A DNA stretch of 64,000 nucleotides from Xestospongia muta. Taxonomy: Eukaryota; Porifera; Demospongiae; Haplosclerida; Petrosiidae. The notes below the pieces were generated by a model. The model was not told where the DNA came from and ran no database searches. It saw only the letters and a program-made list of their open reading frames with translations. Shown here one piece after another: positions 6,330 through 62,429 of the stretch. The position numbers and the translations under genes are program-made. The stretch lies in contig OY848918.1 of assembly GCA_963693285.1 (NCBI GenBank), forward strand, positions 2,981,876-3,045,875, read 5' to 3'. Within the stretch, counting starts at the first letter, position 1. Every line of letters begins with the position of its first letter.

Positions 6330-9300
6330 ATGGATGAGGTCATTTTATTAAAGGAAATTTCAGTTATCTTTCTTACGATTATTTGCTATGTAAATGGAAC
6401 TAGTAAGTGTTATTGATAGTTTTGCATATAATTAAAGCACACACACATATATACATATACTGCAGATATCACAGTAGCTCCTTCATCAGTGTCTGCTCAA
6501 CTTTACAAACTGGCTAACTTTACCTGTGTGGGCACTGGAGATATACTGTCATGGACAGTAGGTAGTAATTTACTCACTGATCCCAGTAATCAAGACAGAG
6601 AGATATCAGTAACTACTAACAATATATCAGTTGATGTGTGCTCATCAGTACTAACTATAAGAGCACTACCTATTAATGATGGTATAAGTGTTGAGTGTAA
6701 TTTGATTAGTTTCAATCCCTATGGTTTAAAGCAAAAAGGAGCTACATTGACCATCAAAGGTATGAGCAGTGTTGTCATTTTTATGGTTTCTTTAATTAAA
6801 CTGGTACCATTAAAAACCAAACTTATATTATTGGCATTAAAAATTTACTTCTTTAGATATTTCATCTATTGAGGATTTAGTAATTTTAATAATGAATAGT
6901 CTTTCAATAACCTGGTCTCCTCCCTCATTTTACTCTGATGATATTCCACAATGGAGTATTACAACATATCATGTTACTGTTCAGAATAAAGATGGCTCTC
7001 TACTAGTAAATACTAATACAACTGATACCTTCTATAATAATGGATTTTCTAATAAATTCACAGTCTGTGATATTTATACAGTTATTGTAACAGCTTTTAT
7101 TGAACAATACACATCAATTGGTGTTAGCTCTACAAGAGAATATTCAGGAAGTAAGTTGACATAACAAATCACCAAATATAGTGATTGTTATTCAATTACA
7201 GATTATACAGTTAAAATACAAAGCTATACTGTAGTTTTTGTTGATACTGAAAGCAAATTCACTGAACAGTTTAAATTAAAGGTATAATATTATGTTATAG
7301 TAAATATGAATTTTATTATTTCAAGGTCAATGGTACACCTAGACTGTGTAATAGTCTACTATTTGGTACAACTGAATATAACAATATTGTGACAACTTAT
7401 TATCTTCAATATATTGGAAACACTACTAATAATGATGATGTCATTATCTGTTATAATATTACTGGTCTGGATCCATTTAAGAACTACACTTTTACTGTAT
7501 ATATCATGGACTCTTTTAACAACACTAAAGACAAAGATCATATTATGTTTAGTGAGTTAACAAACTTATAATTTTGTTATAAACCAATATTTCATATAGC
7601 AATCTATCATGTTCAAGAACTCACTCTACAGTACTACTCTGATAATGGATCAGTTGTTGTAGAGTGTAGGTTTGCTGAGAAGTCTACTGCTGATGGATGT
7701 CATGTGATATTTAGGGAGTCTTCTAAAGGAACTTTGAAGTCTATTAATATGAGTAAATCCAGTATAGAGGAGAATACAGTATACCAGTACATAACTCTAC
7801 CAGTTAGTGGTAACTATACTGTGACAGCTTATGATATAGTAGATGGTACTACTATAACTAATCCATCTGTTGTGTACCCTCAAGTACTGAAATATATCTT
7901 ACTACTACCATCTTCTACTGAGACTATTGCTTCTACTTGTAAGTGTGATACAGATTATTGTATACTGTTCTGTGATGTTTTGGTATATAGACATTATATC
8001 AAGTGATGATATGTTTTCTTTGTCCGGTGACATTATTAATACTACCAGTATAACAGCATCTGAAGAACCTGCTAGTGGAAAATCTAATAGTAAGTTAAAT
8101 GTGTGGTTATATTAAATTGATGATTTTCCAGTTATACTAGTTCCAAGATATTTTTATATGATATGTGGTATAGGGATCATAATAATAATATTATTTATAA
8201 TATTATTACTTATTATTTATCTTCTTGTTCGAAAGAGGAAGAAACGATCTTTGACACAAAATCAAGGTATGAGCTACTATCTATTAATTATCCTTTTGTA
8301 TTTTACTATAGTGAGAACAATAGTACATTATCAACAAGCTAATAACAACAAGTATGTTTAAGATACAAGTTGCGATATACTATGGTATACATGTAATTTC
8401 AGTTATGAAGAACTACTTCAGTTAACTACAACAACTAATAATGTTACTACAGTAGTATCTGACCCTTATCACATTAGTCACGATGAGGTACGTGTTAACA
8501 CTATTTAATAGCATTGTTTATATTGTACATTATGGTTTCTTTATACACTATTCCCATTCTATAAACAACATTCACTTTGTCTTTGAGTTATTATATACAC
8601 TCACTGTATCTGTTTATTGTCTCTTATATATAACTATAATGAAAGATGTTTTGTCTTGTAATTGTGTACTATTAGTATTAATAGAAGCTGACTAATTGTG
8701 AATATTGATAATGTCTATGTATAGTTACTTGGTTTAAGAAGAGAACATCAACAACCAACTACATCTTCTCAAACACAATCTTCACCATCACAGCCTATAT
8801 CACAATATCATATTATGTCACATCAAGTTCCACCCACCTTATCAGAGTTATCTCGTACCATTACTATGACTGGTGTTAGTGAACATGATCTGCTATTACC
8901 AAACAATACATCTTCTACTACTCCTTGTGATAATGAATTTGAAGAGTTAATGACAAAATCAACATTACCAAATAATGTAGGTTGTTTATGTGATATAATT
9001 ATAATAGTCGTTACTGGTACTAATATCAGTTGCATTACTGTAATTGTGACAAGTTGCCAATTTCTTACAATTATACAGTCAGACATAGTCAGCTGGGTAA
9101 TATTTATCATCACAAGTCACATTGCTATGTCTCACATTATGTGTGGTGGTTGCTATTGTCAAGGGAACAGTTACTATGGTATAAATTACTTCAAAAATAT
9201 AAATGTTTTGCAAACGTTGCCTCACAAATATATATTTTAATTGTTATATTCATAATTATTTGTCCTCCCTCTGTTGAATGTACATTGACCAAAATATTAT

Positions 9301-59734: not shown

Positions 59735-62429
59735 TTATGTAATACTTGTATATTCTACAGCATCCTGTTGACCCACTGTTGGTGTAGTATAATCCCTTTG
59801 AGGAAACTCAAGTGGAGTATATTGTGTTGTTGTCTAACATAGGAGATAATATATGTTACATACGATAATCAAATAAATCATTAGTTTACAACAAACATCT
59901 GCTATATAAAGGGTTGTAACACCAAATAGAGAATAACCCTATTAATTAGTAAATAATAATTGTGGTTATGTTGTCAGTAGTGAATACAGATGTCTCCAAC
60001 ATAACCAAAAATTTATAGAATAAGAAAACAATATTTCAACTATGACTTATGTTATCACATCTATCTGTCCATACATTCATGTATCCATTCATCCTGAACA
60101 GCTGATATATATCTATCTATAGTTATATAACAAGCTATAAATGTACATATGTTGTTGTTTATATGGTATCAATTAATTAGTTCTAGTTATACATACATGT
60201 TGTGACATACAATGTACTCATATAATTTATGAACATAATTGGATATATTATATGTACTATATTATATATGATCACTGTAAACATACCAATACTTACAACT
60301 ATTTATATTATTAATATATTAAATATACAACCTCGTTGTGAGGTAGTCACAAGAATTATGAGTAGAGTAGTCTCATGAAATTTAAAACCAAAAGCAGCTA
60401 TAAATATCAGTGTAAGTACAGGTCATTGTCAAAGTTACAAGTGTACTGTGTTAAAGTACTATAATATAATTTATGGGACACTATAATATCACATGTATAG
60501 CACTGGAATCATGTCTATCACTTGTACAGCACAGATATCATGTCTACCTCATTAGGTTGGTAGTACTGGTTAGCTATAATGTAGTCAAGTTGAATATATC
60601 ACATGTACAGTTATAACAATAACTAGAGATACACATTATATAGAACACACCTGTTGACTATTAATAGAATCTGTTCTAGTCTTTAACATATCTTGAGGAG
60701 TGAGATAGTCATCAACACACTATATATATATATTACTTATAGTTATAACAACAAGTATTCTGTCAACAATAACTCAAAGTACCTTTTGATTTATATGTAT
60801 ACCATCTCTTCTTAAAGTACACAATACATAGTACACATAATACGATAACAGTGATCAGAACAATAACCACTGGTGTTACTATAGCAATTATAGTGGTATT
60901 AATAGAAGATCTAGGTTGAGTACCTAATAGAAGACATAATGTAAACATCACATATCTAGTATTACATACTATGTGTAAGAGAAGGTGTTTCTGATGTTAC
61001 TGGACTATTAGAGATGGAATGAACATGGTAGGTTGCTATAGAGTTAGTAAAGGAGTCAATAGGACATAGATTAACAATATAATCAACTCACAAGATATGA
61101 CCTTATCTTCAGTCTCTGTGCTATTAACTAAAGCCATAATATATTCAATAAATGTATCATTGATATAGGGATATAGACCAATTATAGTATTATATGTAAT
61201 TGTTAATGTTTCATTGTCGTTGGTTATATTCCAAATGGAAAAAGGGACTGGATATTGGGTTGTACTTGATATATAGGATATGATACTAGCACAGAAGTGA
61301 TGTAAACGATTGATCTACAAATAGTTCAAATATATCAACAATTATGTAGAAATTTTTAGTTCTTACATTAGTGGTAAATTGTATTGATTTTATAGAAATG
61401 TTTTCTGAGCTATTGAAATGGTTGAATTTCATAACATTAATAGTAAAATCTAGTTTCACAATAAGACATTCAATCAATGATTAATATGATCTTACTTCCA
61501 GTATATTGTTCAGTAGTAGTTGTAGAAGGTGAACTGTATTGTTCAATTAAAGCTGTGACACTAGCAGTATAAATATCACAGTCTGTGAGGTTATTAGGTA
61601 ACTGATAGAATGTGTCAGTTGTATTATCATCTACTATTACAGAACCATCTTGTCTTTTAACATAAACATAATATGTTGTAATATGTCCTTGTGGAATATC
61701 ATCAGAGTAAAATGATGGAGCGGACCAGGTTAAAGACACATTATTATTAAAATCCAAATTAAGTTGCTTAACAGATGAAATACCTATAGTATTGCATACC
61801 TACTTTAAATTACATTGTAATATAAATTATTGGACTACTTAAAAATTAACATCAAATTATTAACCCAAATTATCTAAATCTAAGAATGTCATAAAAGTAG
61901 TATAATGCTTTATACAACACCAAAACTATTATAAGACAGTTTTTGATTTGTTAATGGTACAATATATTGTATATATGTCATTGAATATAGTAGTAATAAC
62001 TATAAACTAACCTAATACTGTTAAAGTAGCTCCTCTCTTCTCATAACCATGTGAAATAAAACTGATCACAGTACATGAAATACTCATTCCATCATTAATA
62101 GGTAGTGCTCTTATAGTTAGTACTGATGACCACACATCAACTGATATATTGTTAGTTGTTACTGATATCTCTCTGTCTTGATTACTGGGATCATTGGTTG
62201 AAATACCATGTACTGTCCACTTCAATTTGTCTCCTATAGCTTCACAAGTAAACTTAGCCAGTGTATTAATTAGAGTGTTAACTGGTGAGGGAGCTACTGT
62301 GATATTAGCTGCATTAAGAAAGAAGAAAAACAATTTGGAAACATTAATTTATCTATTACCATCAGTGTCTCTAATAGTATATAAAAGTCCCACAACAATC
62401 AGAAAGATGGCTTTTTGATTTGTTGCCAT
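59735..62429 (-). CDS. Receptor gene K: lacks Cys-pair domain, distinct Tyr-rich tail
   Basis: On minus: 62429-62360, 62308-62012, 61783-61496, 61449-61367, 61314-61092, 61035-60970, 60923-60783, 60719-60651, 59833-59735. Leader MATNQKAIFLIVVGLLY. Ig: [23 protein letters not shown]3: SLTWSAPSFYSDDIP. The second FN3-like domain is divergent (YNTIIGLYPYINDTF). Exon 6 is only 66 bp (STYHVHSISNSPVTSETPSL): the Cys-pair domain is gone and its first residues join a stalk. TM: IIAIVTPVVIVLITVIVLCV followed by KKRW. Tail exons: DDYLTPQDML; then TTQYTPLEF, RDYTTP and VEYTSIT at the stop. QYTPL and VEYTSI fit Yxx[LI] motifs, the latter the ITIM pattern. One problem: exon 7 ends in phase 1 while the two tail exons read in phase 0, so the exon 7/8 junction is unresolved; read through, exon 7 ends KGTLSYC. 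Confidence 0.65.

Follow-up and report, generated by a model that had tools for sequence, protein, structure and literature searches.

The sponge Xestospongia muta carries, very probably on its chromosome 2, a large cluster of receptor genes, part of which occupies the 64,000-nucleotide stretch of DNA analysed here (C2:2981876-3045875), which we call the window. The genes form a family of couples of two classes, a and b, with exons that appear to have been converted between copies and with tails that differ from gene to gene, and we rate it slightly above an even chance that this description holds and that the likeliest use of the family is the recognition of non-self tissue or microbes. As predicted from its exons, the family comprises roughly a hundred related single-pass receptor genes and is larger than in a preliminary description of the window, which also missed the divergent a/b pairing and the exon-confined homogenization. 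New here are the a/b classes in divergent couples, the homogenization of particular exons, and the sharing of tail exons bearing NPxY motifs with genes of another ectodomain about 2 Mb away.

Extent of the Family and Structure of the Ectodomain

The genome searched amounted to 158.03 Mb in 28 contigs; the available part of the report on the published odXesMuta1.1 assembly gives 158.52 Mb in 298 scaffolds and names contig order as unsure solely at chromosome 2, 16.1-18.9 Mb, outside this locus (PMC12398682). An exon encoding a pair of cysteines (the Cys exon) has at least 144 matches in the genome, all but 2 of them on C2, and the immunoglobulin (Ig) exon has at least 132. Strand and openness were counted on 116 of the 144 Cys rows, the 28 omitted being partial, stop-containing, low in identity or off both of the blocks in which the family is concentrated; full-length (at least 99 codons) and stop-free exons make up 102 of the 116. 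Of these, 66 lie in block 1 (C2 1.1-1.9 Mb), 63 on the minus and 3 on the plus strand; the other 36 lie in block 2 (C2 2.85-3.25 Mb, with the window inside it), 15 on the minus and 21 on the plus strand. The sequence read comprised 260 kb of block 2 (C2:2855001-3115000, which contains the window), 25 kb from block 1, 18 kb at C2 1.02-1.04 Mb and two stray copies (C3, C10). Uncollapsed alleles, as assembly duplicates, are unlikely to account for the family because the nearest Cys exon is 87-98% identical and never above 98% (37 copies). The ENA proteins P0013, P0009 and P0002 have best-scoring genome matches of 81, 80, and 54% identity (partial matches up to 86, 88, and 73%). The helical domain of gene g4 is matched by P0027 at 99% identity, and P0037 was recognized by eye as g9; no conclusion on polymorphism is drawn from them.

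In the window, full Ig exons were found by tblastn at 6468, 17730, 41298, and 46895 on the plus strand and at 26609, 35754, 55084, and 62303 on the minus strand, with E-values of 1e-40 to 1e-60. In computed models, the leader, Ig, first fibronectin type III (FN3)-like (FN1) and Cys exons of genes A, B, C, E, and G connect through GT/AG sites with the reading frame kept, and the cluster with shared leader-Ig-FN3-Cys exons that had been described is thereby borne out. The second FN3-like (FN2) exon was joined by the models in C and G alone, for which no transmembrane (TM) site was found in the computed joining; in A, by eye, a phase-0 intron sets off the first half of this exon as a small exon of its own. 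The A model stays open up to the stalk and then meets stops, the script having placed the stalk donor downstream of the GTAAGT seen by eye. Gene K had been said to lack the Cys exon, and by eye just its start (ATYHV) persists in a short exon. The Cys-pair domain is itself FN3-like, as predicted by the structure model of an Amphimedon relative. Three plus-strand genes (g28, g30, and g229, the last at 229759 of the joined 260-kb stretch) have two Ig-FN1 units, a b-like leader and an FN2 exon leaning to a, and on their sequence they read as class mosaics.

Exon-Confined Homogenization

Silent divergence (dS, pooled, NG86) was compared among classes a and b and the genes of block 1 (class n); the labels were set by strand with hand-set exceptions, b including the three mosaics, and the outcome agreed with that of earlier labels. 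In the Cys exon dS is 0.09-0.13, both within and between a, b, and n, and in Ig codons 35-72 it is 0.09-0.14, whereas Ig codons 1-34 give 0.56 between a and b and FN1 gives 0.46. In FN2, dS within classes is 0.07 (a-a), 0.47 (b-b), and 1.13 (n-n), and between classes 0.83 (a-b), 1.17 (a-n), and 1.06 (b-n). A profile of flank identity over 22 Cys exons, which like the comparison of nearest Cys exons used the earlier class labels (two genes mislabelled), follows the exon closely: DNA identity is 88-97% for all class pairs over the 300 bp that begin at the Cys anchor, in the next 50 bp, spanning the exon end, it is 74-81%, and between classes it is 51-67% in the preceding 300 bp and 40-73% in the following 350 bp; within a, the preceding 300 bp are 68-93% identical. 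For several Cys exons the closest relative belongs to another class or block. The same pattern recurs in the tail named T1 (two NPxY motifs, then ADYENI), where over 15 tail exons the terminal exon is 88-100% identical among a, n, and the family with another ectodomain at 1.02-1.04 Mb (m) and the small NPxY exon 85-90%, with adjoining windows at 37-72%; between a and m the TM exon, too, is in part 91% identical.

Protein-level selection was rejected as the main source of this likeness, silent sites being equally alike. Such selection cannot hold silent sites alike; the low silent divergence is probably due to ectopic gene conversion restricted to exons in which homology persists. One could instead regard the locus as mostly a graveyard of recently expanded, decaying genes, alike at silent sites through recent duplication, and the many relics and stop-containing copies across the family, the stop in window gene D, and an omega of 0.90 for the TM exon and 0.77 for the tail exon of T1 would suit this. 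It is nonetheless very unlikely: 102 Cys exons are full-length and open, and recent whole-gene duplication fails because for the same class pairs dS is near 0.1 in one exon yet about 1 in the exon beside it.

Classes a and b in Divergent Couples

Most genes in the 260 kb belong to class a (leader mostly beginning MDE, FN2 with NGTPRLCN) or class b (leader mostly beginning MAT, FN2 with PHLCN); g0, g1, g3, g6, and g7 have variant leaders, and the leaders of some genes were not found. Classes were scored by comparing Ig, FN1, and FN2 exons with three seed genes per class, a gene's own exon being left out. All 14 divergent couples with both members classed, relics among them, consist of one a and one b, four of them the other way round, with b on the minus and a on the plus strand, which class shuffling yields with P 4.1e-4. 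The b calls of g229 and g243 are by modest margins, and excluding both leaves 12 of 12 couples mixed (P 0.0015). Outside the 14 stand six divergent couples: five with a fragmentary or missing partner ectodomain, and g29/g30, dropped because g30 (557 to 546 bits for a) is a mosaic and unclassable. The signal resides in class within couples, since orientation switches in block 2 are by themselves not above shuffles (P 0.15).

Start codons within couples lie from 472 bp (closest) to 8.1 kb (widest) apart. In two couples whose start codons are separated by 472 and 838 bp, the heads share 78% identity over 495 aligned columns, and a stretch beside the b start (in pieces of 52-159 bp) is common to 8 of the 13 heads compared, for several of which the start codon was estimated. 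We infer that the divergent a/b couple is a functional unit.

Tails and Their Motifs

The T1 tail is found on most a genes of the 260 kb and is the tail kind found most often. The long, Tyr-rich T2 occurs on A, B, and g7, with a T2-like tail on g33, and b genes carry T3 (basic; Tyr-less in G), T4 (a helical domain, seen in g4 and in g9, whose copy has a stop close to the end), T5, T6, and T8. C, g28, and g30 have a hydrophobic end and a stop, and the tail of K is of its own kind. That tails vary by gene had been noted before, and the kinds then distinguished hold good for A and B (long and Tyr-rich, with 11 and 12 Tyr), D (NPAY, NPSYITV, and YENI), E (basic), K (Tyr-rich, 10 Tyr), and C (a hydrophobic stretch ending in ALIVET and a stop, common to two paralogues).

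The genome holds at least 52 matches to the T1 terminal exon (23 in block 2, 28 at 1.02-1.76 Mb, and 1 on C3) and at least 11 to the T2 exon (4 in block 2, 7 in block 1). Among five block 1 genes, two have T1 with a T1-like TM exon, one has T1 exons after another TM, one has a T2-like tail, and one gave no tail match. At C2 1.02-1.04 Mb, three T1 terminal exons (93-96% identity) follow genes with another ectodomain, to which the Ig exon of the family has one match (27%, E 0.026) and its FN1, FN2, and Cys exons have none at E 0.1. Tails and ectodomains thus seem, on sequence, to have been combined in several ways, because T1 exons follow varied TMs and ectodomains and E joins a T1-like TM to T8. 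At C2:1019001-1037000 this other receptor family is arrayed with T1 NPxY exons, and interleaved frames carry a different tail-like sequence (DYQIIPRSKPP). At C2:2936657-2949442, minus strand, five consecutive T1 tail copies lie at or downstream of g13, some near Cys pieces, and may be alternative 3' ends or relics.

Motifs were counted in eight tails against shuffles of each, with P values uncorrected for the number of tests. NPxY exceeds the shuffles in D and in Amphimedon P0015 (two sites and P 0.0002 in each), in g0 (one site, P 0.01), and in P0025 (one site, P 0.04), and is absent from the tails of A, B, G, and K. Related ectodomains with differing tails, as in the paired activating and inhibitory receptors to which the cluster had been likened, are indeed present, and a cluster of this vertebrate kind, built on immunoreceptor tyrosine-based activation and inhibitory motifs (ITAM and ITIM), could also claim the ITAM-like Tyr pairs of the T1 tails of D and g0 (P 0.03 and 0.04; YITV-x9-YENI) and of P0025 (P 0.0008; YEHI-x7-YEDV), the Yxx-hydrophobic sites of A, B, and P0025 (P 0.04, 0.05, and 0.008), and a Glu in the TM stretch of four of five T3 genes by eye, G being the one without it. 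However, ITIM-like sites show no excess over shuffles in the eight tails (P 0.12-0.28), so that ITIM counts were rejected as evidence; the two such sites of A are both missing from its paralogue g7, and the T1 spacing of 9 is outside the usual ITAM spacing of 6-8. Such an ITAM/ITIM system is in our view distinctly improbable. In T1 terminal exons the SYIT Tyr is kept in 17 of 17 and the YEN Tyr in 15 of 17, although selective constraint on this tail is not demonstrated because omega is 0.77 for the terminal exon (17 copies) and 0.90 for the TM exon (12 copies), copies with gaps, stops or partial length having been dropped.

The T4 tail of g4 and g9, outside the window, is a six-helix domain, a candidate member of the death-fold superfamily, with 16 sequence matches, none of them a named entry (15 are in alignment A1); Foldseek gave no match at E 0.001, and Pfam and PDB sequence searches no usable one. 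Twelve distant relatives of this domain lie at C3 8.6-9.5 Mb, and at the one such locus read a Roco COR-A-like frame adjoins.

Relatives and Comparable Systems

The ectodomain matched six Amphimedon proteins at 33-40% identity in one search (26 matches in all, of which 15 are in alignment A2), and is accordingly neither single-copy nor invariant in related species, an outcome that would have spoken against a recognition locus. P0015, a UniRef entry, is 37% identical over 94% of the composite query and P0018 (LOC109584334) 35% over 99%; P0019 is LOC109585391 (Amphimedon queenslandica). Both P0015 and P0018 have the leader, Ig, FN3-like, and Cys domains seen here, and P0015 adds a TM stretch and two NPxY motifs. 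The structure model of P0015 shows Ig and FN3-like folds, the Cys-pair domain included, and resembles the ectodomains of RPTP delta/LAR, NCAM2, and gp130 in having Ig and then FN3 folds, at 9-16% identity. Unlike in RPTP delta/LAR, reading the tail exons brought no phosphatase or kinase domain to notice, no search having been aimed at such domains.

Vertebrate paired receptor clusters (KIR, LILR, and others) combine similar ectodomains with differing tails. The sponge genes do likewise, but here NPxY rather than ITIM is in excess, genes stand in divergent a/b couples, and homogenization is confined to exons. In the allorecognition complex of Hydractinia, 41 Alr family members are cited in the available part of PMC11999971, and 22 putative ALRs are given for Podocoryna in that of PMC13119343. 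As a way of working, the comparison with Alr is apt in that both are clustered, many-membered receptors with Ig-type domains, whereas the sponge genes have one Ig and FN3-like domains, and no entry named Alr is among the 26 homologue matches. What was available of the literature links sponge members of the Ig superfamily to adhesion (PMC11999971) and treats other sponge immune families, NLR and SRCR (PMC9505182, PMC10855680, PMC12909245). The main text of an Amphimedon graft transcriptome study nowhere contains the words immunoglobulin, receptor or transmembrane (PMC5450542), and a literature search, most subscription papers being outside its reach, found no such sponge cluster named.

Proposed Function and Alternatives

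Each receptor would be a single-pass protein with a leader, an Ig domain, three FN3-like domains, a stalk, a TM stretch and a tail, and the unit in the block containing the window would be a divergent couple of a and b, probably co-expressed from the shared head region. The outer Ig and FN3 parts may bind a ligand on cell surfaces or microbes, and the tail may set the response, two-NPxY tails recruiting phosphotyrosine or endocytic adaptors and the remaining tails signaling differently or not at all. Ectopic conversion would prevent the classes from diverging in the Cys exon, the Ig core, and the terminal NPxY exon, and the homogenized exons could in turn offer homology junctions at which ectodomains and tails recombine. 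Contact-dependent recognition of non-self tissue or microbes is the likeliest use, and we infer an immune or allorecognition role for the cluster. A bolder version, in which the a/b couple is a two-chain receptor and the super-cluster, its conserved exons serving as recombination junctions for the swapping of ectodomains and tails (phosphotyrosine, tail-less, and death-fold-like), is the long-sought allorecognition or microbe-recognition complex of a sponge, seems to us rather unlikely.

Several observations weigh against the proposal. Tail joins are putative, being deduced from position, strand, and open frames, and overlapping constraint at the DNA level could be another source of silent-site identity. 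The mosaics g28 and g30 are unclassable, the FN2 exon of g229 leans to a, and the Ig exon alone favors the opposite class in g1, g4, g27, r157, and g243. The a/b pairing is not general, because g2, g17, and g28 are unpaired and block 1 is almost wholly on one strand (63 to 3). Some heads are closely alike (83-88% between two couples over their four longest matches, and 81-88% between those of g29 and g34), and couples may have been duplicated as units; they would then not be independent, and the a/b pattern could be explained by descent. Finally, omega is 0.24-1.08 over the compared exons, and diversifying selection was not detected in them. This last result also fits lineage-specific adhesion or developmental receptors, expanded in tandem and with drifting tails, that have no part in self/non-self or microbe recognition, and the likeness of the modeled Ig and FN3 ectodomain to adhesion receptors and receptor phosphatases points the same way. 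In our judgement, however, so many open copies (about a hundred), the a/b couples, and the presence of its tail exons behind another ectodomain would be unusual for a developmental set, and we hold this explanation to be unlikely, though a serious contender.

Genes and Relics in the Window

Gene A (6330 to 10400, end approximate, plus strand) is of class a, with leader, Ig, FN1, FN2, Cys, stalk, and TM parts before its T2 tail, and its Cys exon at 7605-7925 (plus) exemplifies the homogenized kind. Gene C (17602-19723, plus) is a class b gene with an open ectodomain, and a class a relic (16304-17088, minus) is its divergent partner. It had been taken to lack a tail, and its hydrophobic stretch and stop agree with a tail-less or GPI (glycosylphosphatidylinositol)-like end, yet a further TM exon with basic residues (T7; 20525-20653, plus) lies about 0.8 kb past its end, after a second stalk-like stretch, as an alternative end or a relic. 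Gene D (24503-26730, minus) is of class a with a T1 tail and has a divergent class b relic at 30359-31509 (plus); its NPxY and Tyr tail is as earlier described, but its FN1 exon holds an in-frame stop and it may be a pseudogene. Class b gene E (32400 to 35878, end approximate, minus), with its T1-like TM exon and then the different, basic T8 tail, is the divergent partner of class a gene B (41170 to 45325, end approximate, plus), which has a T2 tail.

Gene G (46768-49158, true end uncertain, plus) is of class b, and divergent to it stands an Ig fragment (46030-46167, minus) with class scores of 78 and 77 bits. Its basic T3 tail is Tyr-less, as claimed, over the 54 residues examined; the TIV end ascribed to it could not be confirmed. 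A class a relic (53661-55281, minus) retains leader, Ig, FN1, a piece of FN2, the T1 TM exon, and the NPxY tail exon, its Cys exon not being found; divergent to it, a Cys exon and a T3-like TM exon lie at 55765-56393 (plus), where no other ectodomain exons were found. Solo T1 tail exon remnants follow at 56856-57247 (pieces at 56788-57247, minus). Class b gene K (59736-62429, minus), with its Cys exon cut to the first residues and its own Tyr-rich tail, whose joins and end were set by eye, is partnered by class a gene g27, which starts at 63708-64000 (plus) and has its two-NPxY tail outside the window. Between A and C, positions 11454-13326 (minus) hold two long open frames, the first matching PF25273 (DUF7869) at 40.8 bits and the second having no Pfam match; the pair is perhaps a mobile element. 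At 10866-11316, similar open frames lie on both strands, FN3-like by eye and inverted-repeat-like, and the plus-strand frame has no Pfam match.

Significance

Sponges reject foreign grafts, and in the parts of the literature examined no receptor genes for this are named. The cluster offers a concrete, mapped set of candidates for genes of self/non-self recognition or microbe sensing in sponges, and the proposed model predicts co-expression by couple, variation of gene content among individuals, and phosphorylation of NPxY tails. In the homogenization of particular exons, nature also provides a clean case of concerted evolution restricted to parts of a gene, which would explain how common modules are kept beside outer parts and tails that diverge.

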